From positions 62,001-126,000 of the forward strand of contig NZ_RYYS01000064.1 of assembly GCF_004138215.1 (NCBI RefSeq): a DNA stretch of 64,000 nucleotides. The letters run 5' to 3'. The first letter of the stretch is position 1; each line of letters starts with the position of its first letter. The position numbers and the translations under genes were made by a program. Of the stretch, positions 4,993-44,693 are shown in pieces. The notes under the pieces were generated by a model. That model saw only the letters and a program-made list of their open reading frames with translations, was not told the DNA's origin and did no database searches. The stretch comes from Anaerophilus nitritigenes (GTDB taxonomy: Bacteria > Bacillota > Clostridia > Peptostreptococcales > Thermotaleaceae).

Positions 4993-5913
4993 TTACTTAA
5001 AGGTTACATTAAATTTTTCAACCATTTTATAAGGACGATAAGAAAGCTTTGCTTTTCTTAAATTTTCAAGGCCCATATCTTCTTCTCGATTGATATATTT
5101 TATATCTATACATTCATTTTTGCAAAATTCATTATTAATAGCTTGATATAACCCCTTAATAGTAGGATTGGCTTTTTCTATATGAACAACAATTGTATCA
5201 TCATAAAGCATGCCTCCTAAAGTAAAAGCTTGAAGCTTATGATCAATTAAAATAGCTCCTCCTTTGCATTTAAGATGATCCATATTTAAGAGAGCTTCTT
5301 TTAAAGCTATTTCTTCTGCTTCTATTAAATGATTTGAAAAAGAATTTAGATCTTTATAGTCAATTAAACGTTTATTAAAATCAAGGCAATCTTTTATTAA
5401 ATCTTTTGTTAATGAAACATATTTATAAGGGATATTTCTTATAAAATAATTTAAGTGATTTTTTTTAGAATGATATTTTCGTCCCTTTAATTCTATTAAG
5501 TCATTTTTAAGATATACATAATCAAAATTTACTCGATCTTCCGTAAAGTTAAGCTTATTTTTCATAGCTTCATCAAATATAGATATTAAGTGCTTAGGCA
5601 ATAATTTGATTTGAAAAGGGAAACCTTTTTGATCAAATCTTTTTTTTATTTCATCAATCGTTAAAGAAAGTTTATTCAGATCATATTGGCCGATAGCTAA
5701 AGGAGGGAGAACAAAGGGTTCTTTTTTATCCATATTGAGTAGGCTAACTCCTCCTATACATAAAAAGTCGTTGATTATTTCATACTTAAATTCATTTAAT
5801 TGTCGCCACATAAAAAGGCTTGTAAAACTAAGTCCAGAAGTTTCATAAGGATAACTAAAAATATATTTTTCAAATAAAGCTTTGTCTTTTAATGTAATGT
5901 TATTTTGAAACAT
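4993..5913 (-). CDS. DUF2156 protein, related to the LPG synthase C-terminal domain
   Basis: 306 aa, two GNAT-like folds of the type found in the catalytic part of MprF/phosphatidylglycerol lysyltransferase. Recognisable segments are the early FTSLFMWR, GRKYHSKKNHLNYF near residue 140, and YINREEDMGLENLRKAKLSYRP near the C-terminus. No transmembrane flippase domain is present, so this is a stand-alone soluble acyltransferase; aminoacyl-tRNA-dependent transfer is the family expectation, with unknown acceptor. It is the first gene of a two-gene operon with the Eis-like acetyltransferase. GAAGGAG lies ahead of the ATG. Confidence 0.85.
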   Translation of the reverse strand: MFQNNITLKDKALFEKYIFSYPYETSGLSFTSLFMWRQLNEFKYEIINDFLCIGGVSLLNMDKKEPFVLPPLAIGQYDLNKLSLTIDEIKKRFDQKGFPFQIKLLPKHLISIFDEAMKNKLNFTEDRVNFDYVYLKNDLIELKGRKYHSKKNHLNYFIRNIPYKYVSLTKDLIKDCLDFNKRLIDYKDLNSFSNHLIEAEEIALKEALLNMDHLKCKGGAILIDHKLQAFTLGGMLYDDTIVVHIEKANPTIKGLYQAINNEFCKNECIDIKYINREEDMGLENLRKAKLSYRPYKMVEKFNVTFK

Positions 5914-6038: not shown

Positions 6039-7397
6039 TTAAAAAGACTTTTTCTCCTTTTTCATTAGTTCAAAGAAAGTTTTTGTTTCAGCTACAATGA
6101 CTCCGCTTAATCCAATCAAACCAATCAAGTTTGGAATAGCCATCAAGCCATTTACAATATCTGCTAAAATCCAAATCATATCTAATTTTAAGAAAGCTCC
6201 ACTAGCTACAAGAAGAATATATATATATTTAAAAGGCTTAATTCCTTTTACACCAAACAAATATTCCGTACATCTTTCTCCATAATAATTCCAACCTAAT
6301 ATAGTAGTAAAAGCAAAGAACATAAGTCCAATTGTAACAATATATTGACCCAATACTGGTAGAGCTTGACTAAAGGCTAAGTTGGTCATAGCAGCTCCTT
6401 CCATATCAGAAGACCAAGCACCTGTTAAAACAAGAACCAAACCTGTCATTGTACATACTACAATAGTATCAAAAAATGTTCCTGTCATAGAAATAAGACC
6501 TTGACGAACACAAGACTTTGTTTTTGCAGCAGCTGATGCAATAGGAGCACTTCCTAGACCTGATTCGTTAGAAAATACACCTCTAGCTATTCCGTTTCGG
6601 ACTGCAAACATGACAGATGCTCCTAAGAATCCTCCAGTTGCTGCAGTTGGAGTAAAAGCACTTTTTAAAACAAGTCCTATAGTTTGAGGAACTAAGTCAA
6701 TATTTAAAATAAGAATTATTAAAGAACCGATAATATAAAATACAGCCATAAATGGAACAACTAATTCTGATACCTTTGCAATGCTTTTGATTCCTCCTAA
6801 AGAAACTAAAGCTACTAAAAGAGTAAGGATCACAGATGAAACAATAATTGGCATATTTAAAGTAATTTTTGCAGCATTTGTAATAGCATTTACTTGTGGG
6901 AAGGTACCAATCCCAAAGAATGCTACTCCAATTCCGAAAAATGCAAACATTTTAGCTAATAATTTATTGCCAAGACCTCTTTCGATATAGTACATAGGTC
7001 CACCAGACATTTGACCATTTTTATCTACAACTCTGTATTTTACAGCCAAAAGACCTTCTGCATATTTTGTTGCCATACCAAAGAAAGCTGCAATCCACAT
7101 CCAAAATAATGAACCAGGACCTCCTGCTTTAATAGCAGTTGCAACACCTACGATATTACCTGTACCAATAGTTGCGGCCAGTGCTGTACATAATGCGGCA
7201 AAACTAGATACATCACCTTCTCCAGTGTGATCATCATCTTTTGAAAATAAATATCTTAAAGCAAGGGGTAATTTAAAGACTTGTAGTAGTCCTAAACGAA
7301 GGGTGAGATAAATACCAGTGCCTACTAAAAGAATGAGTAGGGGAGGACCCCATACAAATGAATCGATTTGTTCCAATACATTGGTTATATTTTCCAT
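6039..7397 (-). CDS. sodium:alanine/glycine symporter (AGCS family)
   Basis: 452-aa membrane protein of the AGCS family with about 11 hydrophobic segments. Family signatures are visible: GTGNIVGVATAI near residue 78, GGPGSLFWMW, and NESGLGSAP near residue 277. It imports alanine or glycine with sodium. It is a single-gene unit controlled by the tandem glycine riboswitch just upstream, which points to glycine as the relevant ligand. AGGAGGAAAG precedes the ATG. Confidence 0.93.
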   Translation of the reverse strand: MENITNVLEQIDSFVWGPPLLILLVGTGIYLTLRLGLLQVFKLPLALRYLFSKDDDHTGEGDVSSFAALCTALAATIGTGNIVGVATAIKAGGPGSLFWMWIAAFFGMATKYAEGLLAVKYRVVDKNGQMSGGPMYYIERGLGNKLLAKMFAFFGIGVAFFGIGTFPQVNAITNAAKITLNMPIIVSSVILTLLVALVSLGGIKSIAKVSELVVPFMAVFYIIGSLIILILNIDLVPQTIGLVLKSAFTPTAATGGFLGASVMFAVRNGIARGVFSNESGLGSAPIASAAAKTKSCVRQGLISMTGTFFDTIVVCTMTGLVLVLTGAWSSDMEGAAMTNLAFSQALPVLGQYIVTIGLMFFAFTTILGWNYYGERCTEYLFGVKGIKPFKYIYILLVASGAFLKLDMIWILADIVNGLMAIPNLIGLIGLSGVIVAETKTFFELMKKEKKSF

Positions 7398-7540: not shown

Positions 7541-7703
7541 TACTCTGTCCTTTTACCTGAGAGATTCACCATATAAATATGGCTTGCTCCTTCGGTGCTC
7601 ATACTGAGTCTCTCCAGAGGCTCGTCCGATAACGGTCCTTTTACCTGAAAGCTTAACCCCTTCGGTGGATGCATTTGCATCTCTCTCCCATTATCATCAT
7701 CCG
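7541..7703 (-). ncRNA. tandem glycine riboswitch (gcvT motif, two aptamers)
   Basis: On the - strand, two successive aptamers show the conserved core. Aptamer 1 (about 7691-7632) has GGGAGAG, CACCGAAGGGG and CAGGTAAAAGGAC. Aptamer 2 (about 7625-7543) has GGAGAGA, CACCGAAGGAGCAA and CTCAGGTAAAAGGAC. This is the classic cooperative glycine riboswitch layout. It precedes a sodium:alanine/glycine symporter. The alternative pairings point to an OFF switch, set out in the findings. Confidence 0.95.
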
Positions 7704-36765: not shown

Positions 36766-38130
36766 ATGAAAAAATTTATTCTTCCCCTTATTCTTGCTGT
36801 AGCTTTGATTGGAACAGGTGTATGGGGATATAATCAACAAGTAGAAAAAGATGAATATTATACTTTTTTAGATAATCAATTTCAAAGAATGTATTATGAT
36901 TTGATGGGAAGTGTAGAGACGATTACTACAGATTTATCAAAACTTATTGTATCTTCTCAAAAAAAAGAAAATATAGTTTTGTATTCTGATATATGGCAAA
37001 ATGCATATAATGCTCAAGAAAAATTGTCTCAATTGCCTATTCGTCATGGAGAGATTACAAAGATTGAAAAATTTTTAAGTCAATTAGGAGATTATACTTT
37101 TGCCATGGCAAAGAGAAGTATTAATAATGAAGCTTTAGGAGAAAAGGAAATTAATAATTTAGAACAGCTTCATAATTATGCATTAGATCTTTCAAAAGAT
37201 TTGCATGAACTTCAAAAAACAGCTCTAAAAGGTACAGTTTGGAAAGATCAATTAAGGAGAAAGGCTAGCAAGAAGCTTAATAAAGAAGCAGAGCAAAAAA
37301 ATCCTATTCAGCTTAAATTTAATCAATTTGAAGAGAGAATGGTAAAATATCCAGAGCTTATTTATGATGGACCATTTTCAGAACATGTGATTGAGGGAAT
37401 GAGACCAAGATTAAAGGGAGATAAAATTACACAAGAGCAAGCTCAAAAAAAGGTAATAGATTTTTTAGGAGGAGGAAAAGTTGATAAAGTAGAAAAAACA
37501 ACAAATGGGAAAGGAAGAATTGATACTTATAGCTTTGAAGTGATTCCTAAAAATCAAGAAGCAGGAAAAGGAAATCCTGTATATATTGATATTAGTCAAA
37601 GAAATGGATATGTAGCATGGCTTTTAAATAATAGAGAAGTGAAAAAAGCTACATTATCTCCAAAGCAAGGAGTAGAACATGCATCTAAATTTTTAAATGA
37701 AAAAGGATTTTTTAATTTAGTTCCTACTTATACCTTACAATATGATGGAGTGTTGCTAATTAATTATGTGTATAAGCAAGATGAAGTGCTTATGTATTCA
37801 GATTTAGTGAAAGTAAAAATTGCTTTAGATAATGGTGAGATCGTAGGTTTTGATTCAACTCATTTTTTAACTACCAATTACATAAGAAGTATTGAGCCAC
37901 CTAAAATTACAAAAGAACAAGCAAGAGAAAAAATTAATCTTCGTGCTACGATTGAAAAAGAACCTAGCCTTTGTATTATTCCTACAAGCTCCTTTGGAGA
38001 AATTTATTGTTATGAATTTGAAGCTTCTTATAAGGGAGATCACTTTTTAGTTTATGTCAATGCAGATACAGGAGAAGAAGAAAAAATATTAAAAGTTATT
38101 AAAAATGAAAAAGGAACACTTATGATCTAA
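36766..38130 (+). CDS. ypeB: germination protein YpeB
   Basis: 454 aa. An N-terminal membrane anchor at residues 4-20 precedes a helical domain (about 25-180) and repeated PepSY-like domains in the C-terminal half (TQEQAQKKVIDFLGGG, SPKQGVEHASKFLNEKGF, TKEQAREKINLR). YpeB and SleB depend on each other for stability and localisation in the spore. AGGAGG lies in the sleB-ypeB gap. Last gene of the unit. Confidence 0.95.
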   Translation: MKKFILPLILAVALIGTGVWGYNQQVEKDEYYTFLDNQFQRMYYDLMGSVETITTDLSKLIVSSQKKENIVLYSDIWQNAYNAQEKLSQLPIRHGEITKIEKFLSQLGDYTFAMAKRSINNEALGEKEINNLEQLHNYALDLSKDLHELQKTALKGTVWKDQLRRKASKKLNKEAEQKNPIQLKFNQFEERMVKYPELIYDGPFSEHVIEGMRPRLKGDKITQEQAQKKVIDFLGGGKVDKVEKTTNGKGRIDTYSFEVIPKNQEAGKGNPVYIDISQRNGYVAWLLNNREVKKATLSPKQGVEHASKFLNEKGFFNLVPTYTLQYDGVLLINYVYKQDEVLMYSDLVKVKIALDNGEIVGFDSTHFLTTNYIRSIEPPKITKEQAREKINLRATIEKEPSLCIIPTSSFGEIYCYEFEASYKGDHFLVYVNADTGEEEKILKVIKNEKGTLMI

Positions 38131-38157
38131 AACAGCTAAATTTTTAGCTGTTTTTTA
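38129..38157 (+). terminator. intrinsic terminator of sleB-ypeB
   Basis: AAAACAGCTAAA pairs with TTAGCTGTTTT, then TT; it begins at the ypeB stop. Confidence 0.8.
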
Positions 38158-38167
38158 CATAAATAAA

Positions 38168-38232: not shown

Positions 38233-39297
38233 ATGGAAAAAATAAATGTAGCAGTAATATTTGGGGGAAAATCAGGAGAACATGAAGTATCTTTAATGTC
38301 TGCAACTTCTGTGATCAAAGCTATAAATAAAGAAAAATACAATTGCTTTCCTATAGGAATTACAAAAGAAGGAAATTGGATGATATATAATGGACCCGTA
38401 GAAAAGATCGAGACAGGTGAGTGGGAAGAAATTGCAAAAAACAAACAAATCGAAGATTTTTCTATAATGCCTATAAATAGAAAATATTCCAAGCTAAAAG
38501 AAATGGCAGATGTAGTATTTCCAGTACTTCATGGGCCTTTTGGAGAAGATGGTACTATTCAAGGATTGTTAGAGATGGCAGATATGTCTTATGTAGGAGC
38601 AGGGGTGTTGGCATCTTCTTTAGGAATGGATAAAATTCTTAGTAAAAAAATATTTGAAAAAGAGGGCCTTCCTGTTGGAAAATATATGTTTGTGATGAAA
38701 TATCAACTAAAAGAAAACATAGACCAATGTATAAAAGAAATTGAAGAAGCTTTTTCTTATCCTGTTTTTATTAAACCTGCTAATTTAGGATCTAGTGTAG
38801 GGATTAGTAAAGCTCATAATAGGGAAGAATTAATAATAGGATTGAATCAGGCATCTTTACATGATAGAAAAATAATTATAGAAGCTTATATTGATGGAAG
38901 AGAAATAGAATGTGCTATTTTAGGAAATGATCATCCTAAGGCATCAGTTTTAGGAGAAATATTACCTTCTCATGAATTTTATGATTATCAAGCAAAATAT
39001 TCCGACGATCAAAAATCTAGACTTATAATTCCTGCGGATCTTCCAAAAGAGAAGTCTGACGAAATAAGAAAAATGGCAATATGTGCATATAAAGCTATAG
39101 ATGGATCAGGGCTTTCAAGAGTAGACTTTTTTGTGGAAAAAGATTCTTTGAAAGTATATATTAATGAAGTCAATACTATGCCAGGTTTTACAAAATATAG
39201 TATGTATCCTCTTTTATGGGAGGCAACTGGACTTTCTTATGAAGATTTAATTGATGAGCTTATACAGCTTGCAATAAAAAGATATAAAAATCGATAA
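38233..39297 (+). CDS. ddl: D-alanine--D-alanine ligase
   Basis: 354 aa, ATP-grasp family. FGGKSGEHEVSLMSATSV at the N-terminus, HGPFGEDGTIQGLLE near residue 97, and KPANLGSSVGISK near 180 are diagnostic, with INEVNTMPGFT at the C-terminus. It makes the D-Ala-D-Ala dipeptide for the cell wall. The active-site stretch reads KYSMYP (Tyr before P), where D-Ala-D-Lac ligases differ; vancomycin-type activity is not suggested. First gene of a three-gene unit. Confidence 0.95.
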   Translation: MEKINVAVIFGGKSGEHEVSLMSATSVIKAINKEKYNCFPIGITKEGNWMIYNGPVEKIETGEWEEIAKNKQIEDFSIMPINRKYSKLKEMADVVFPVLHGPFGEDGTIQGLLEMADMSYVGAGVLASSLGMDKILSKKIFEKEGLPVGKYMFVMKYQLKENIDQCIKEIEEAFSYPVFIKPANLGSSVGISKAHNREELIIGLNQASLHDRKIIIEAYIDGREIECAILGNDHPKASVLGEILPSHEFYDYQAKYSDDQKSRLIIPADLPKEKSDEIRKMAICAYKAIDGSGLSRVDFFVEKDSLKVYINEVNTMPGFTKYSMYPLLWEATGLSYEDLIDELIQLAIKRYKNR

Positions 39298-39310: not shown

Positions 39311-39727
39311 ATGAAAAATATTATGCTAAAAATAGAAGGAATGCAAATAGATATGGATGGTGAAGAAAACAAAATTGAATTAGTGACAGAAGGAAAACTC
39401 TACGAAAAAGAAGATGCAGTTTATTTAGTATATGAAGAAACAGAAGTATCAGGAATGAAAGGTTGCACAACGAGTGTAAAACTTTCTCAAGATAAAATCT
39501 ATATGAAAAGATTTGGAAGATTAAAGTCAGAAATTATATTTGAAAAAGGTAAAAGATATATGACTCATTATCATACTCCTTATGGAGTATTTGATATGGA
39601 AGTATTAACACAAGATATGAACTATTCTATTACAGATGCGAAAAAGGGTGGAGTGCATATAGAATATTTTATAAATTTAGAAGGAATGACAGAAAGTCAA
39701 AACAAGCTTAATATTACTATTATGTAA
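39311..39727 (+). CDS. DUF1934 protein (YwiB-like)
   Basis: 138 aa, predicted beta-barrel of the calycin-like type. YETEVSGMKGCTTSVKLSQDKIYMKRFG and FEKGKRYMTHYHTPYGVFDMEV are the family hallmarks. The function is not established. In Bacillus the homologue ywiB lies directly upstream of argS; here a core-less ArgRS-like gene occupies that place. It follows ddl by 13 bases. Confidence 0.85.
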   Translation: MKNIMLKIEGMQIDMDGEENKIELVTEGKLYEKEDAVYLVYEETEVSGMKGCTTSVKLSQDKIYMKRFGRLKSEIIFEKGKRYMTHYHTPYGVFDMEVLTQDMNYSITDAKKGGVHIEYFINLEGMTESQNKLNITIM

Positions 39728-39749: not shown

Positions 39750-40484
39750 ATGAACATGAAAATAATACAAGATAAAATAAAAAAAACAGTATTAACAAAA
39801 TATGGATATGAAGAGCTACCTTCTTATATTGAAGTAACAATACCTAAAAATAATTCTTATGGAGATTATACAACCAATATAGCATTTAAACTTTCTAAAG
39901 GACTTCATAAATTACCTATAGAAATTGCAAATGAAATTACAAAATTATTAAAAACAGATAATATATTTGAGGATGTAGTAGTAAGCTCTCCTGGATTTAT
40001 AAACTTTTTTATAAGTGCTCATGCTTTGTATGAGGAATTGAATCAAAAAAACTTAACCCAAATACCTTTAAAATTTATAGATGAAGAGAAGATTAAACAT
40101 TGTCTAAAGTCTTTTCCTAAAGAAAAAATAGATTCTATGCAATATGTTCATAGTAGAATTTATTCCATCATAAAAATATTTAAACAAGAGGGAATCAATA
40201 TGGATGAAAAAATCAATCTAGGAGAATATGAATTTTCATCTTTACAAAAACAAATTCTTAAAAAGATTTTTCTATATGAAGAGATGATTGATAAAGATAC
40301 AGAAACAATTTTTTTATATGGAATAGATTTAAGTGAACTTTTCTATAAAATAGAAGAAAAAATTTTGTTTAGAAAACTTGAAAAGAATGCACAATATGTT
40401 ATGCTAAATATAATAGAATATGTAAGAAAAATAATTCAGAAAATATTGCAAGTTTTTTTATTAGATGCACCAGAAAAAATGTGA
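39750..40484 (+). CDS. arginyl-tRNA synthetase-like protein lacking the catalytic core
   Basis: 244 aa, against about 560 for ArgRS. Residues 1-95 match the ArgRS N-terminal additional domain (IPKNNSYGDYTTNIAFKLSK, PGFINFFIS). Residues about 130-244 match the C-terminal DALR anticodon-binding domain (MQYVHSRIYSIIKIF, ending in LLDAPEKM as ArgRS ends in APxxM). The whole Rossmann catalytic core with HIGH and KMSKS motifs is missing, joined by a short linker. The frame is intact. The ribosome site is weak (AAAG). It may bind tRNA-Arg without charging it; a complete argS must exist elsewhere. Could also be a decaying pseudogene with the frame preserved. Confidence 0.8.
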   Translation: MNMKIIQDKIKKTVLTKYGYEELPSYIEVTIPKNNSYGDYTTNIAFKLSKGLHKLPIEIANEITKLLKTDNIFEDVVVSSPGFINFFISAHALYEELNQKNLTQIPLKFIDEEKIKHCLKSFPKEKIDSMQYVHSRIYSIIKIFKQEGINMDEKINLGEYEFSSLQKQILKKIFLYEEMIDKDTETIFLYGIDLSELFYKIEEKILFRKLEKNAQYVMLNIIEYVRKIIQKILQVFLLDAPEKM

Positions 40485-40489
40485 AAATA

Positions 40490-40514
40490 AAGCAGCGAAA
40501 GCTGCGTTTTTTTT
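40490..40514 (+). terminator. intrinsic terminator of ddl-DUF1934-ArgRS-like unit
   Basis: GCAGC pairs with GCTGC around GAAA, followed by T8. Confidence 0.85.
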
Positions 40515-40574: not shown

Positions 40575-41966
40575 ATGGAAATGATTTTTTCCAAAAGTAA
40601 TGTAGAAACAATTTTAGATTATGTAGAAGAAGGTATACAAATTATAGATGCAAGAGGAAGAATTGTGTATTTCAATTGTTCGGCTGCTCAATATGAAGAT
40701 ATACATAGAGAAGAGGCAATAGGAAGACATATCTTAGATGTATATCCTTCACTAGATCCTGACACGAGTACTCTTTTAAAAGCTATTGAAAAAGGAGTGC
40801 CTACATTTGATATACAACAAAGCTTTTTAAGCTACAAGGGAAATAAAATTACAACTGTAAATTCTTCTTTCCCCATTAAAACAAGAGGAAAAATAATAGG
40901 AGCTATTGAAATTTCTAAAAATATTACTCATGTACAAGAACTTTCTGAAAGAGTAATGGCTTTGCAAGAACAACTTTTGTATAAAGAAAAAAAAGACCAA
41001 AAAAGTCAAGATAGTACAAGTTTTACTTTTTTAGATATTATAGGTCAAAGCAAGGAGATTCTAAAGGTTAAGGAACTGGCTTTAAAAGCTTCTCAAACTT
41101 CTTCTCCAATCATGATTTATGGAGAAACAGGAACAGGAAAAGAGTTATTTGTACATGCTATTCATGCAAGTAGCATAAGAAGAAATAAACCTTTTATTGC
41201 TCAAAACTGTGGAGCTTTGCCTACAAGTTTATTAGAAAGTATATTATTCGGAACGGTAAAGGGAAGCTTTACAGGAGCTGATAATAGAGCAGGATTATTT
41301 GAACTTGCTGATGGGGGAACTTTATTTTTAGATGAAATCAACTCTATGCCTATAGAATTGCAAGTAAAGCTTTTAAGAGTGCTACAAGATGGAACAATAA
41401 GACGTGTAGGAGATATAAAAACTAGAAAAGTAGATGTAAGAATTGTAGCTGCGAGCAATGAAGATCCATTAATAGCAGTAGAACAAAAACGTTTAAGAAG
41501 AGACTTGTACTATCGTCTTAATGTAGTGTCTTTAGTACTTCCGCAGCTTAAGGAAAGAATAGGAGATATTCCTATTTTGACTCAATTTTTTATTGGAAAA
41601 TTTAATTATAAGTTAAACAAAAATGTACAAAAAATTTCTAATGAAGTATTAAAACTTTTTGAAAATTATGATTGGCCTGGGAATGTGAGAGAGTTAGAGC
41701 ATGTAATAGAAGGTGCTATGAATATTATGGATGGTGATACCATTACATTAGAATGTTTGCCTATGCATTTTGAAAAGTATTATAAAAAAAATATAAAAAA
41801 AATAGATGTAGAGGATATTTCTTTAAAAGAAGCTTTAGAAAATTTAGAAATACACTTGATTAAAGATGCTTTAATCAAGTGGGATCAAAATATTAGCCAT
41901 GCAGCAGATGAACTTAAAATACCAAGACAAACTCTACAATACAAAATAAAAAAATATAAAATATAA
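40575..41966 (+). CDS. sigma-54-dependent transcriptional activator (PAS-AAA+-HTH)
   Basis: 463 aa. A PAS sensor covers about residues 8-115, the AAA+ domain about 153-390, and a Fis-type helix-turn-helix (ISHAADELKIPRQTLQYKIKKYKI) forms the C-terminus. Walker A is GETGTGKE at 183-190, the sigma-54 contact loop reads GSFTGA at 230-235 instead of the usual GAFTGA, Walker B is GGTLFLDEI, and the arginine region is RRDLYYRLNVV. It stands immediately upstream of the lysine operon, whose promoter is a perfect -24/-12 site, so it is the likely activator, sensing lysine or a pathway metabolite through PAS. RocR-like in layout. Confidence 0.93.
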   Translation: MEMIFSKSNVETILDYVEEGIQIIDARGRIVYFNCSAAQYEDIHREEAIGRHILDVYPSLDPDTSTLLKAIEKGVPTFDIQQSFLSYKGNKITTVNSSFPIKTRGKIIGAIEISKNITHVQELSERVMALQEQLLYKEKKDQKSQDSTSFTFLDIIGQSKEILKVKELALKASQTSSPIMIYGETGTGKELFVHAIHASSIRRNKPFIAQNCGALPTSLLESILFGTVKGSFTGADNRAGLFELADGGTLFLDEINSMPIELQVKLLRVLQDGTIRRVGDIKTRKVDVRIVAASNEDPLIAVEQKRLRRDLYYRLNVVSLVLPQLKERIGDIPILTQFFIGKFNYKLNKNVQKISNEVLKLFENYDWPGNVRELEHVIEGAMNIMDGDTITLECLPMHFEKYYKKNIKKIDVEDISLKEALENLEIHLIKDALIKWDQNISHAADELKIPRQTLQYKIKKYKI

Positions 41967-42282: not shown

Positions 42283-43320
42283 ATGAAAAAAGGATGTCCT
42301 TATGGAACACACAGGGTTATAGAGCCAAAAGGAGCTCTTCCACAACCTGCTACAAAAATTGATAACAATATGGAAATTTACGACAATGAGATTTTATTAA
42401 ATGTTCAAACATTAAATGTTGACTCTGCAAGTTTTACACAAATAAAAGAACAAGCAGGTGGAGACGTAGAAAAAATTAAAGAAATTATGTTAGGAATTGT
42501 TGCTGAAAGAGGAAAGCATCAAAACCCAGTAACTGGTTCTGGTGGTATGTTAATCGGAACAGTTGAAAAAATTGGATCAGCTTTAGAAGGAAAAACAGAT
42601 CTTAAAGTAGGAGATAAACTTGCTACATTAGTATCTTTATCTTTAACTCCATTAAGAATAGATGAAATCGTAACTGTAAGAAAAGATATTGATCAAGTAG
42701 ACATTAAAGGAAAAGCAATTTTATTTGAATCAGGAATTTATGCAGTTCTTCCAAATGATATTCCAGAAAATCTTGCTTTATCTGCACTTGACGTAGCAGG
42801 AGCTCCAGCTCAAACTGCTAAATTAGTAAAACCAGGAGACACTGTATTAGTAATTGGTGGAGCTGGAAAATCAGGTATGCTTTGCTGTTATGAAGCAAAA
42901 AGAAGAGCAGGAGTTACTGGTAAAGTAATTTGCTTAGGACATAGTGAAAAAAGTTTAGAAGTTGCAAAACGTGCAAATGTAGCTGACGTATATGTTGCAG
43001 CAGATGCTACAAAACCAGTTGAAATGATGGAAAAAATCAAAGAACTTACAGATGGACAAATGACTGATGTTACAATCAATAACGTAAATGTTCCAAATAC
43101 TGAAATGTCAAGTATCCTAGCTACTAAAAATGATGGAGTAATTTACTTCTTTAGTATGGCTACAAGCTTTACAAAAGCAGCATTAGGAGCAGAGGGTGTT
43201 GGTTCTGATGTAACAATGATTATGGGTAATGGATATACAAAAGGTCATGCAGAACAAACTCTTCAAATTTTAAGAGAAAGCAAAGAAATTAGAGAAATCT
43301 ACGAAGAATTATATGCATAA
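42283..43320 (+). CDS. kdd: L-erythro-3,5-diaminohexanoate dehydrogenase
   Basis: 345 aa. The opening KKGCPYGTHRVIEPKGALPQPA and the nucleotide-binding VLVIGGAGKSGMLCCYEAKRRAG near residue 188 match Kdd of lysine fermentation. It oxidatively deaminates 3,5-diaminohexanoate to 3-keto-5-aminohexanoate with NAD. Ornithine-pathway 2,4-diaminopentanoate dehydrogenase was considered, but the kam genes that follow fix the pathway. First gene after the sigma-54 promoter; AGGGAGG precedes the ATG. Confidence 0.95.
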   Translation: MKKGCPYGTHRVIEPKGALPQPATKIDNNMEIYDNEILLNVQTLNVDSASFTQIKEQAGGDVEKIKEIMLGIVAERGKHQNPVTGSGGMLIGTVEKIGSALEGKTDLKVGDKLATLVSLSLTPLRIDEIVTVRKDIDQVDIKGKAILFESGIYAVLPNDIPENLALSALDVAGAPAQTAKLVKPGDTVLVIGGAGKSGMLCCYEAKRRAGVTGKVICLGHSEKSLEVAKRANVADVYVAADATKPVEMMEKIKELTDGQMTDVTINNVNVPNTEMSSILATKNDGVIYFFSMATSFTKAALGAEGVGSDVTMIMGNGYTKGHAEQTLQILRESKEIREIYEELYA

Positions 43321-43439: not shown

Positions 43440-44693
43440 ATGAGAAACTACAAAGAAATCGAACTATGGAAAGATGTTACAGATGAGCAATGGAATGACT
43501 GGAAATGGCAAGTAAAAAACAGAATTACAACATTAGAAGATCTTAAAAAAGTAGTAAACCTTACACAAGAAGAAGAAGAAGGAATTAGAAAATCATTAGA
43601 AATATTAAGAATGGGTATTACACCATATTATGCATCTTTAATGGATAAAGATGATCCACATTGTCCAGTAAGAATGCAAGCAGTACCTACAATGCTTGAA
43701 ACTCATAAAGCTGATGCTGACATGGAAGATCCACTTCATGAAGATGGAGACTCTCCTGCACCAGGACTTACTCATAGATATCCAGATAGAGTACTTCTTT
43801 TAATTACTGACATGTGTTCAATGTATTGTCGTCATTGTACAAGAAGAAGATTTGCTGGAAGTAGTGACGATGCAATGCCATTAGCAAGAATTGACAAAGC
43901 TATTGAATATATTAAAAATACTCCACAAGTAAGAGACGTATTATTATCAGGAGGAGACGCTTTATTAGTAGATGATGAAACATTAGAATACATCATCAAA
44001 AAACTTAGAGCAATCCCACACGTTCAAATCGTAAGAATTGGATCAAGAACTCCTGTTGTAATGCCTCAAAGAATTACACCAGAACTTGTAAATATGCTTA
44101 AAAAATATCATCCAATTTGGTTAAACACTCACTTTAACCATACAAAAGAAATTACACCTACTGCTGAAAGAGGATTAGAATTACTTGCAAATGCTGGTGT
44201 TCCTCTAGGAAACCAATCTGTACTTTTAAGAGGAGTAAATGATTGTGTACATGTAATGAGAGAATTAATGCATAATCTTGTTAAAAACAGAGTAAGACCT
44301 TACTACATTTACCAATGTGACCTTTCAATGGGTATCGAACACTTCAGAACTCCTGTTTCTAAAGGTATCGAAATTATTGAAGGTTTAAGAGGACATACTT
44401 CAGGATATGCAGTACCAACATTTGTTGTTGACGCTCCTGGTGGTGGTGGAAAAACTCCAGTTATGCCACAATATGTAATTTCTCAATCACCAAATAAGGT
44501 AGTATTAAGAAACTTCGAAGGAGTTATTACAACTTATTCAGAGCCTTCTCCATATAAAGATACCTGTCATTGCCCAGTATGTAGTGGCGAAAAACAACAC
44601 AAAATTACTGGTGTTGCTGGATTATTACAAGGAAATCAAGTTGCTCTTGAGCCAACTGATTTAGACAGAAAAAAAAGAACTCATCATGAGTAA
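43440..44693 (+). CDS. kamA: lysine 2,3-aminomutase
   Basis: 417 aa, very close in pattern to the characterised clostridial enzyme. The radical-SAM cluster is CSMYCRHC (Cys126, 130, 133), with LLSGGDALL after it, the PLP lysine in DAPGGGGKTPVMP near residue 338, and the C-terminal zinc cysteines in CHCPVC. It converts L-lysine to L-beta-lysine using SAM and PLP. A GGGGG run lies 9 bases before the ATG. Central gene of the operon; it uses more C-ending codons than flanking genes, consistent with high expression. Confidence 0.97.
   Translation: MRNYKEIELWKDVTDEQWNDWKWQVKNRITTLEDLKKVVNLTQEEEEGIRKSLEILRMGITPYYASLMDKDDPHCPVRMQAVPTMLETHKADADMEDPLHEDGDSPAPGLTHRYPDRVLLLITDMCSMYCRHCTRRRFAGSSDDAMPLARIDKAIEYIKNTPQVRDVLLSGGDALLVDDETLEYIIKKLRAIPHVQIVRIGSRTPVVMPQRITPELVNMLKKYHPIWLNTHFNHTKEITPTAERGLELLANAGVPLGNQSVLLRGVNDCVHVMRELMHNLVKNRVRPYYIYQCDLSMGIEHFRTPVSKGIEIIEGLRGHTSGYAVPTFVVDAPGGGGKTPVMPQYVISQSPNKVVLRNFEGVITTYSEPSPYKDTCHCPVCSGEKQHKITGVAGLLQGNQVALEPTDLDRKKRTHHE

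Follow-up and report, generated by a model that had tools for sequence, protein, structure and literature searches.

A core-less arginyl-tRNA synthetase-like gene behind ddl and ywiB in Thermotaleaceae: a probable in-place remnant of an ancestral argS with a putative tRNA-Arg-binding role

Why would a bacterium keep an intact gene for the two tRNA-binding domains of arginyl-tRNA synthetase (ArgRS), but for none of the enzyme between them, at a place that belongs to argS elsewhere in its phylum? The question is raised by the following gene in the window (the whole stretch of 64,000 nucleotides analysed here).

39750-40484 (+): core-less ArgRS-like remnant, 244 aa from an ATG, frame without internal stops; from Pfam, orthologues and an AlphaFold2 model
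39762-40013 (+): ArgRS N-terminal (D-loop-binding) domain, residues 5-88; Pfam PF03485 (Arg_tRNA_synt_N), E 1.7e-20
40014-40136 (+): short linker, residues 89-129, in place of the whole catalytic core; from alignments
40137-40481 (+): DALR anticodon-binding domain, residues 130-244; Pfam PF05746 (DALR_1), E 2.2e-6

The preliminary description had read the protein in just this way, as an N-terminal and a DALR domain without a core in an intact frame, and the open reading frame and Pfam matches bear it out. The DALR_1 match scores 28.2 bits against a Pfam cut-off of 22.3, the N domain carries GDYTTN at residues 38-43 and PGFIN at residues 81-85, and the C-terminal end reads APEKM, as in true ArgRS. 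No catalytic domain of ArgRS is matched in the protein by Pfam, the columns of the HIGH and KMSK motifs are empty in the alignment, and across the linker region type-A ArgRS has over 300 residues more. The score of 78.3 bits against the NCBIfam argS equivalog falls below its cut-off of 261.65 bits. With the N and DALR domains of the enzyme present, the class I core and its HIGH- and KMSK-type motifs missing and the cut-off not reached, the remnant is, judged by its sequence, not an ArgRS; lacking HIGH, KMSK and CP1, it cannot charge tRNA.

The remnant is the last gene of a short unit, with these neighbours in the window.

about 38129-38158 (+): terminator-like inverted repeat (AAACAGCTAAATTTTTAGCTGTTTTTT) with a T-run, between ypeB and ddl; found by eye, absent from the terminator scan list
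38233-39297 (+): ddl, D-alanine--D-alanine ligase, which opens the ddl-ywiB-remnant unit; Pfam/NCBIfam and conserved order
39311-39727 (+): ywiB-like gene (DUF1934), ancestrally located just upstream of argS; Pfam E 2.5e-36 and adjacency across the phylum
40492-40513 (+): intrinsic-terminator-like stem and T-run closing the unit; terminator scan
40575-41966 (+): PAS/sigma-54 activator of neighbouring genes; comparison across families

The inverted repeat forms the 5' boundary of the unit, and the gene before the remnant, first described as ywiB-like, does belong to DUF1934/YwiB. The pairing with ddl had also been taken as a possible sign of tRNA-linked control. This is not supported: ddl and ywiB stay together in relatives that have no remnant, so the ddl link is not evidence of tRNA control, and it is an old neighbourhood. 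The PAS/sigma-54 activator adjoins the remnant in the families labelled here f1 and f6 but has another place in f3 and f12, and is probably functionally unlinked to it; a link to the downstream metabolic genes was rejected, as these genes differ in f3 and f12. Across the compared loci no partner gene is constant beyond the ddl-ywiB pair, none hints at a specific pathway, and the search for defence systems gave only a weak PADLOC match (E 0.042). Elsewhere in the window, a tandem glycine riboswitch (7543-7700, minus strand; two aptamers of 58.6 and 56.5 bits) lies directly in front of a gene of the sodium:alanine symporter family (6039-7397, minus strand).

Orthologues of the remnant were the best matches among 98 related genomes searched, with 244-260 aa and from the same family. 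Within Thermotaleaceae (order Peptostreptococcales; named members Marinisporobacter and Anaerosolibacter), 13 of 16 genomes, the window's included and spread over different genera, carry an intact core-less orthologue in the same place. The 12 other carriers share the order sleB-like gene, ypeB, ddl, ywiB, remnant and PAS/sigma-54 activator, followed by genes that match 42283-43320 and 43440-44693 of the window as far as the contigs extend. Three genomes of family f3 have core-less forms of about 230-240 aa after ddl-ywiB, with the C-terminal tail missing in both of those aligned (two of the three genomes), which brings the core-less orthologues overall to 230-260 aa. None from outside the order appears among the matches listed in profile searches of 398 phylum and 291 class genomes. 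Short frames of 166-274 aa that match the ArgRS N domain occur in the class and phylum (G831:C13, G751:C110, G480:C3, G599:C184 and G363:C27) and may be contig ends, frameshifts or further remnants.

Occurrence in 13 of 16 genomes of several genera, always in the same place, is therefore more than chance or assembly error. That a sequencing or assembly error split or truncated a normal argS has a negligible probability: nothing was found in its favour, the architecture recurs in the 12 other Thermotaleaceae genomes and in three outside the family, and a genome search for a full-length argS, the check proposed with the preliminary description, found one on a separate contig (G000:C110:12582-14267, 568 aa from the first ATG). 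It is the one full-length argS of a genome of 3.06 Mb that is 99.5% complete. The remnant is nevertheless dispensable within Thermotaleaceae, since it is absent from G013 (100% complete), where ywiB is directly followed by the sigma-54 activator, and from the fragmentary G002, which has the same arrangement; the third genome not counted as a carrier, G004, is also fragmentary. Most families of the order lack the remnant altogether.

From which argS does the remnant derive? In the phylum sample ywiB occurs in 66 of 199 genomes, and of the 58 for which the place of argS is listed, 49 have a full-length argS that follows ywiB on the same strand at a distance of 33-302 bp. The ywiB-linked ArgRS examined are of a type that we call A, with NPTG near the HIGH motif and KMSKR or RMSKR. 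In the order to which the window belongs, ArgRS is instead of type B (SPNIAKPFHIGHIRST and similar), encoded away from ywiB. For each of the 20 remnants, type A is a better match than type B. In a tree built on the columns of the N and C domains the remnants form one clade (100/99), as does type B (100/98), and, where A and B divide, the remnant clade joins the side of A; the branches are long, so that the clade may or may not nest inside A. Both the locus, directly downstream of ywiB, and the sequence and tree evidence thus indicate descent from ywiB-linked type A. With type-A ArgRS (B. subtilis-like ArgS) the remnant shares the N-DALR order, the terminal APEKM and the place behind ywiB, but it alone is without the core (HIGH, KMSK, CP1) and without Y459, Y534 and R551 (E. 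coli numbering). Taken by itself, the evolutionary part of our reading, that the ancestral argS decayed at its own locus into the remnant once type B had taken over, is highly probable. The phrase 'usual argS locus' in the preliminary description is apt for the ancestral locus across the phylum (49 of 58), although the working argS of the order lies elsewhere. Similarly, the suggested pseudo-synthetase left after argS had moved is right in outline, in that a gene was left behind; argS itself did not move, and it is type B that charges.

Intermediate stages survive in families f6 and f12, where five genomes have versions of 343-446 aa behind ddl-ywiB (some f6 frames may begin further upstream) with a core that is recognisable but shortened. 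At the position of the type-A NPTGxLHxGHxRG they carry, for example, LEDIFRLESLRAF; in the alignment HxGH is absent and the MSKR stretch deleted in five of five, and with HIGH and KMSK lost these versions therefore cannot be normal synthetases. In one shrunken f6 form (L068, about 5440-5535) the start is apparently upstream of the first ATG, perhaps at a rare start codon that follows a AGGAGGGG motif, and the frame is open for 406 aa. The gene tree groups f1 with f3 and f6 with f12, and a midpoint-rooted tree of ddl and ywiB is compatible with this grouping. A single clade of f1 and f6 is not rejected (AU p 0.31), so that one or two losses of the core are both possible. The presence of the remnant takes seven changes on the ddl and ywiB tree.

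A graded series from dead core to shrunken core, no core and no gene would also be expected of a functionless relic in slow decay, with an ORF that is harmless or kept by chance and erosion continuing. The loss of the gene in G013 and G002 and its absence from most families of the order agree with such decay, as does its faster evolution, with 79% identity in the nearest pair versus 92-93% for the neighbouring genes. The dN/dS of the remnant (NG86) is 0.10-0.44 in six pairs, compared with 0.006-0.17 for its neighbours ddl, ywiB and the activator; two of the pairs have nearly saturated silent sites, which makes their ratios rough. The window and its sister species give 0.31 (bootstrap 95% interval 0.19-0.50) and a second bootstrap estimate is 0.29 (0.18-0.48). 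By part, the window and sister pair gives 0.29 in the N domain and 0.24 in the C domain, so both terminal domains are constrained, with a loose linker. The remnant is under purifying selection, weaker than that on its neighbours. Upper bounds of 0.48-0.50, a frame intact in 13 genomes of several genera although silent sites are near-saturated in some pairs, GD, PGF and N84-equivalent residues that do not vary within Thermotaleaceae and an intact predicted fold all argue against slow decay, which we regard as unlikely.

The AlphaFold2 model, built from six sequences, has a pLDDT of 88.5 and a pTM of 0.84. Its residues 1-244 align by VIA-align with E. coli ArgRS in complex with tRNA-Arg (5b63_C; Z 20.8, 236 aligned, rmsd 4.3), other ArgRS structures reach Z 14.6-19.6, and Foldseek ranks ArgRS first. 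On the anticodon side, Y462, R466 and S469 are found in 13 of 13 Thermotaleaceae remnants and the terminal Met in 12, while R551 and two tyrosines that both types of ArgRS keep without exception (E. coli Y459 and Y534) are lost. The equivalents in yeast are Y491 for Y462, R495 for R466, Y488 for Y459 and Y565 for Y534, residues that contact the anticodon in the 1F7U structure. With Y459, Y534 and R551 lost, the anticodon specificity may therefore have changed. The pocket that holds the D-loop nucleotide A20 in E. coli ArgRS consists of F36, Q40, A78, F82 and N84 (PMC8975779). N84 is kept in 20 of 20 remnants and F82 in 18, with Y and H in the remaining two; all 13 Thermotaleaceae remnants have PGF[IVM]N, and GD, PGF and the N84 equivalent are invariant there. 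As in type A, the residue at position 36 is H, F or Y. Position 40 holds T or S instead of the A found mostly in types A and B, and position 78 is variable. In both tRNA-Arg genes located in the window's genome the A after GG in the D-loop is A20. We read these residues as pointing to a preserved grip on the tRNA elbow and a partly altered one on the anticodon. Thermotaleaceae remnants have a pI of 5.2-8.6 and a net charge near neutral or negative, and are not notably basic.

The preliminary description had proposed aligning the tRNA-contact residues, which prove to be largely kept, and had named two findings that would speak against it: no second argS together with a sequencing error, or loss of all tRNA-contact residues in homologues. 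Both are excluded, since a second argS and orthologues exist and the contact residues are not all lost. The altered anticodon side would also be compatible with a changed target, as for an RNA-binding regulator that recognises a tRNA-like mRNA element or some other RNA in place of tRNA-Arg and controls expression, for instance that of its own ddl-ywiB transcript, and the terminator-bounded unit common to the remnant, ddl and ywiB could be seen in the same light. We consider such a regulator very unlikely, given that no Rfam element was found near ddl-ywiB within the window, that ddl and ywiB remain a conserved pair where the remnant is missing and that the A20 pocket is largely kept.

The working type-B argS of the window's genome has a T-box leader directly upstream (L053 6310-6519, plus strand; 126 bits), and so does that of the sister species (L033 5266-5475, plus strand). 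Of 20 argS loci in the order, 11 have a T-box, among them loci from genomes that lack the remnant; for several of the other nine the upstream DNA may be too short for a verdict. A special link between T-box and remnant was rejected, the T-box being common on argS of the order and present also where the remnant is not. An extra argS in G003, G010 and G129 (L037 4295-6073, L039 2787-4565 and L209 362-2122) belongs to a third ArgRS lineage, which is divergent and about 590 aa long (GANVAKPLHVGHLRSA), and contig C37 of G003 holds an open frame of 217 aa that contains an ArgRS N domain. The window's genome also has a selenocysteine tRNA gene (G000:C44:69993-70084; L236), so selenoproteins are likely in it.

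ArgRS is usually a monomer, which counts against a reading of the remnant as a helper subunit of type-B ArgRS that would supply or block tRNA binding in trans within a mixed complex. Moreover, the N and DALR domains of the type-B enzyme itself are intact, and in most of the order this enzyme functions with no remnant present. The carriers examined do own a full-length type-B argS as well, and a precedent exists in SLIMP, a SerRS-like protein that pairs with mitochondrial SerRS (PMC9437257); by this analogy a helper role is conceivable, and we hold it to be quite unlikely.

We propose instead that the remnant became a tRNA-Arg-binding factor, along the following lines. In the simplest history, a T-box-regulated type-B ArgRS would have taken over charging in the order, making the type-A argS of ddl-ywiB-argS redundant. 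The type-A gene would then have lost HIGH and KMSK, next had its core shrunk and finally lost the core, keeping the two tRNA-gripping domains, and in many lineages it would have been lost altogether. In the surviving protein the N-domain pocket would grip A20 in the D-loop of tRNA-Arg and the DALR domain its anticodon stem-loop, without aminoacylation. The remnant could thereby act as a non-essential adaptor or chaperone for tRNA-Arg, or for a subset, for example in maturation, modification or availability. The regulation, sequestration or chaperoning of tRNA offered in the preliminary description are conjectures. This account builds on the computed fold and absence of the core, the eroded relatives and single clade, the ancestral locus, the purifying selection and the kept pocket residues. 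As a whole, an eroded type-A argS that is now a non-enzymatic tRNA-Arg-binding factor, whose tRNA binding, target and purpose we infer, has our modest preference.

Several known proteins resemble the remnant in part, NrtL and DALRD3 most closely. NrtL proteins are actinobacterial and lie near argS. Like the remnant, NrtL (NCBIfam NF045898, 'ArgS-related anticodon-binding protein', 327 positions) is ArgRS-derived and too short for a synthetase, and 14 of the 15 members of our alignment A2 match its profile at E 1e-3 or better. The remnant, at 46.4 bits (45.6 in the genome search), nevertheless misses the cut-off of 340 bits, and only the N domain aligns; NrtL is thus probably a parallel case and not the same family. 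Our literature search found no papers on NrtL or on a YwiB-ArgS link. In vertebrates, DALRD3 has a DALR domain and no synthetase core, binds arginine tRNAs and is the partner of METTL2 for m3C (PMC7237682). The remnant likewise has DALR without a synthetase core, but DALRD3 differs in its other N-terminal half, its specificity for tRNA-Arg UCU and CCU and its fixed methyltransferase partner, and no such partner is seen here. DALRD3 may therefore serve as a candidate for how the remnant works, rather than as a member of its family. HisZ, SLIMP and other synthetase-like proteins are, like the remnant, synthetase copies in non-charging roles (PMC9437257); these keep the synthetase catalytic fold, whereas the remnant keeps only the tRNA-binding domains.

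As NrtL shows, proteins that derive from ArgRS but fall short of a complete synthetase are already catalogued, and what is new here is one that is fixed at a locus, with surviving intermediates. The label 'arginyl-tRNA synthetase' on the core-less genes is wrong. More tentatively, and with some doubt, the family may represent a bacterial stand-alone grip on tRNA-Arg that consists of D-loop and anticodon domains only, has living intermediates and fills a new role in tRNA-Arg handling; it would then offer a small, natural two-point tRNA-Arg binder. A synthetase replaced by another is expected to vanish, but here it persists under selection without its catalytic half, and the living in-between stages form a testable natural series from a synthetase to a tRNA-binding protein.
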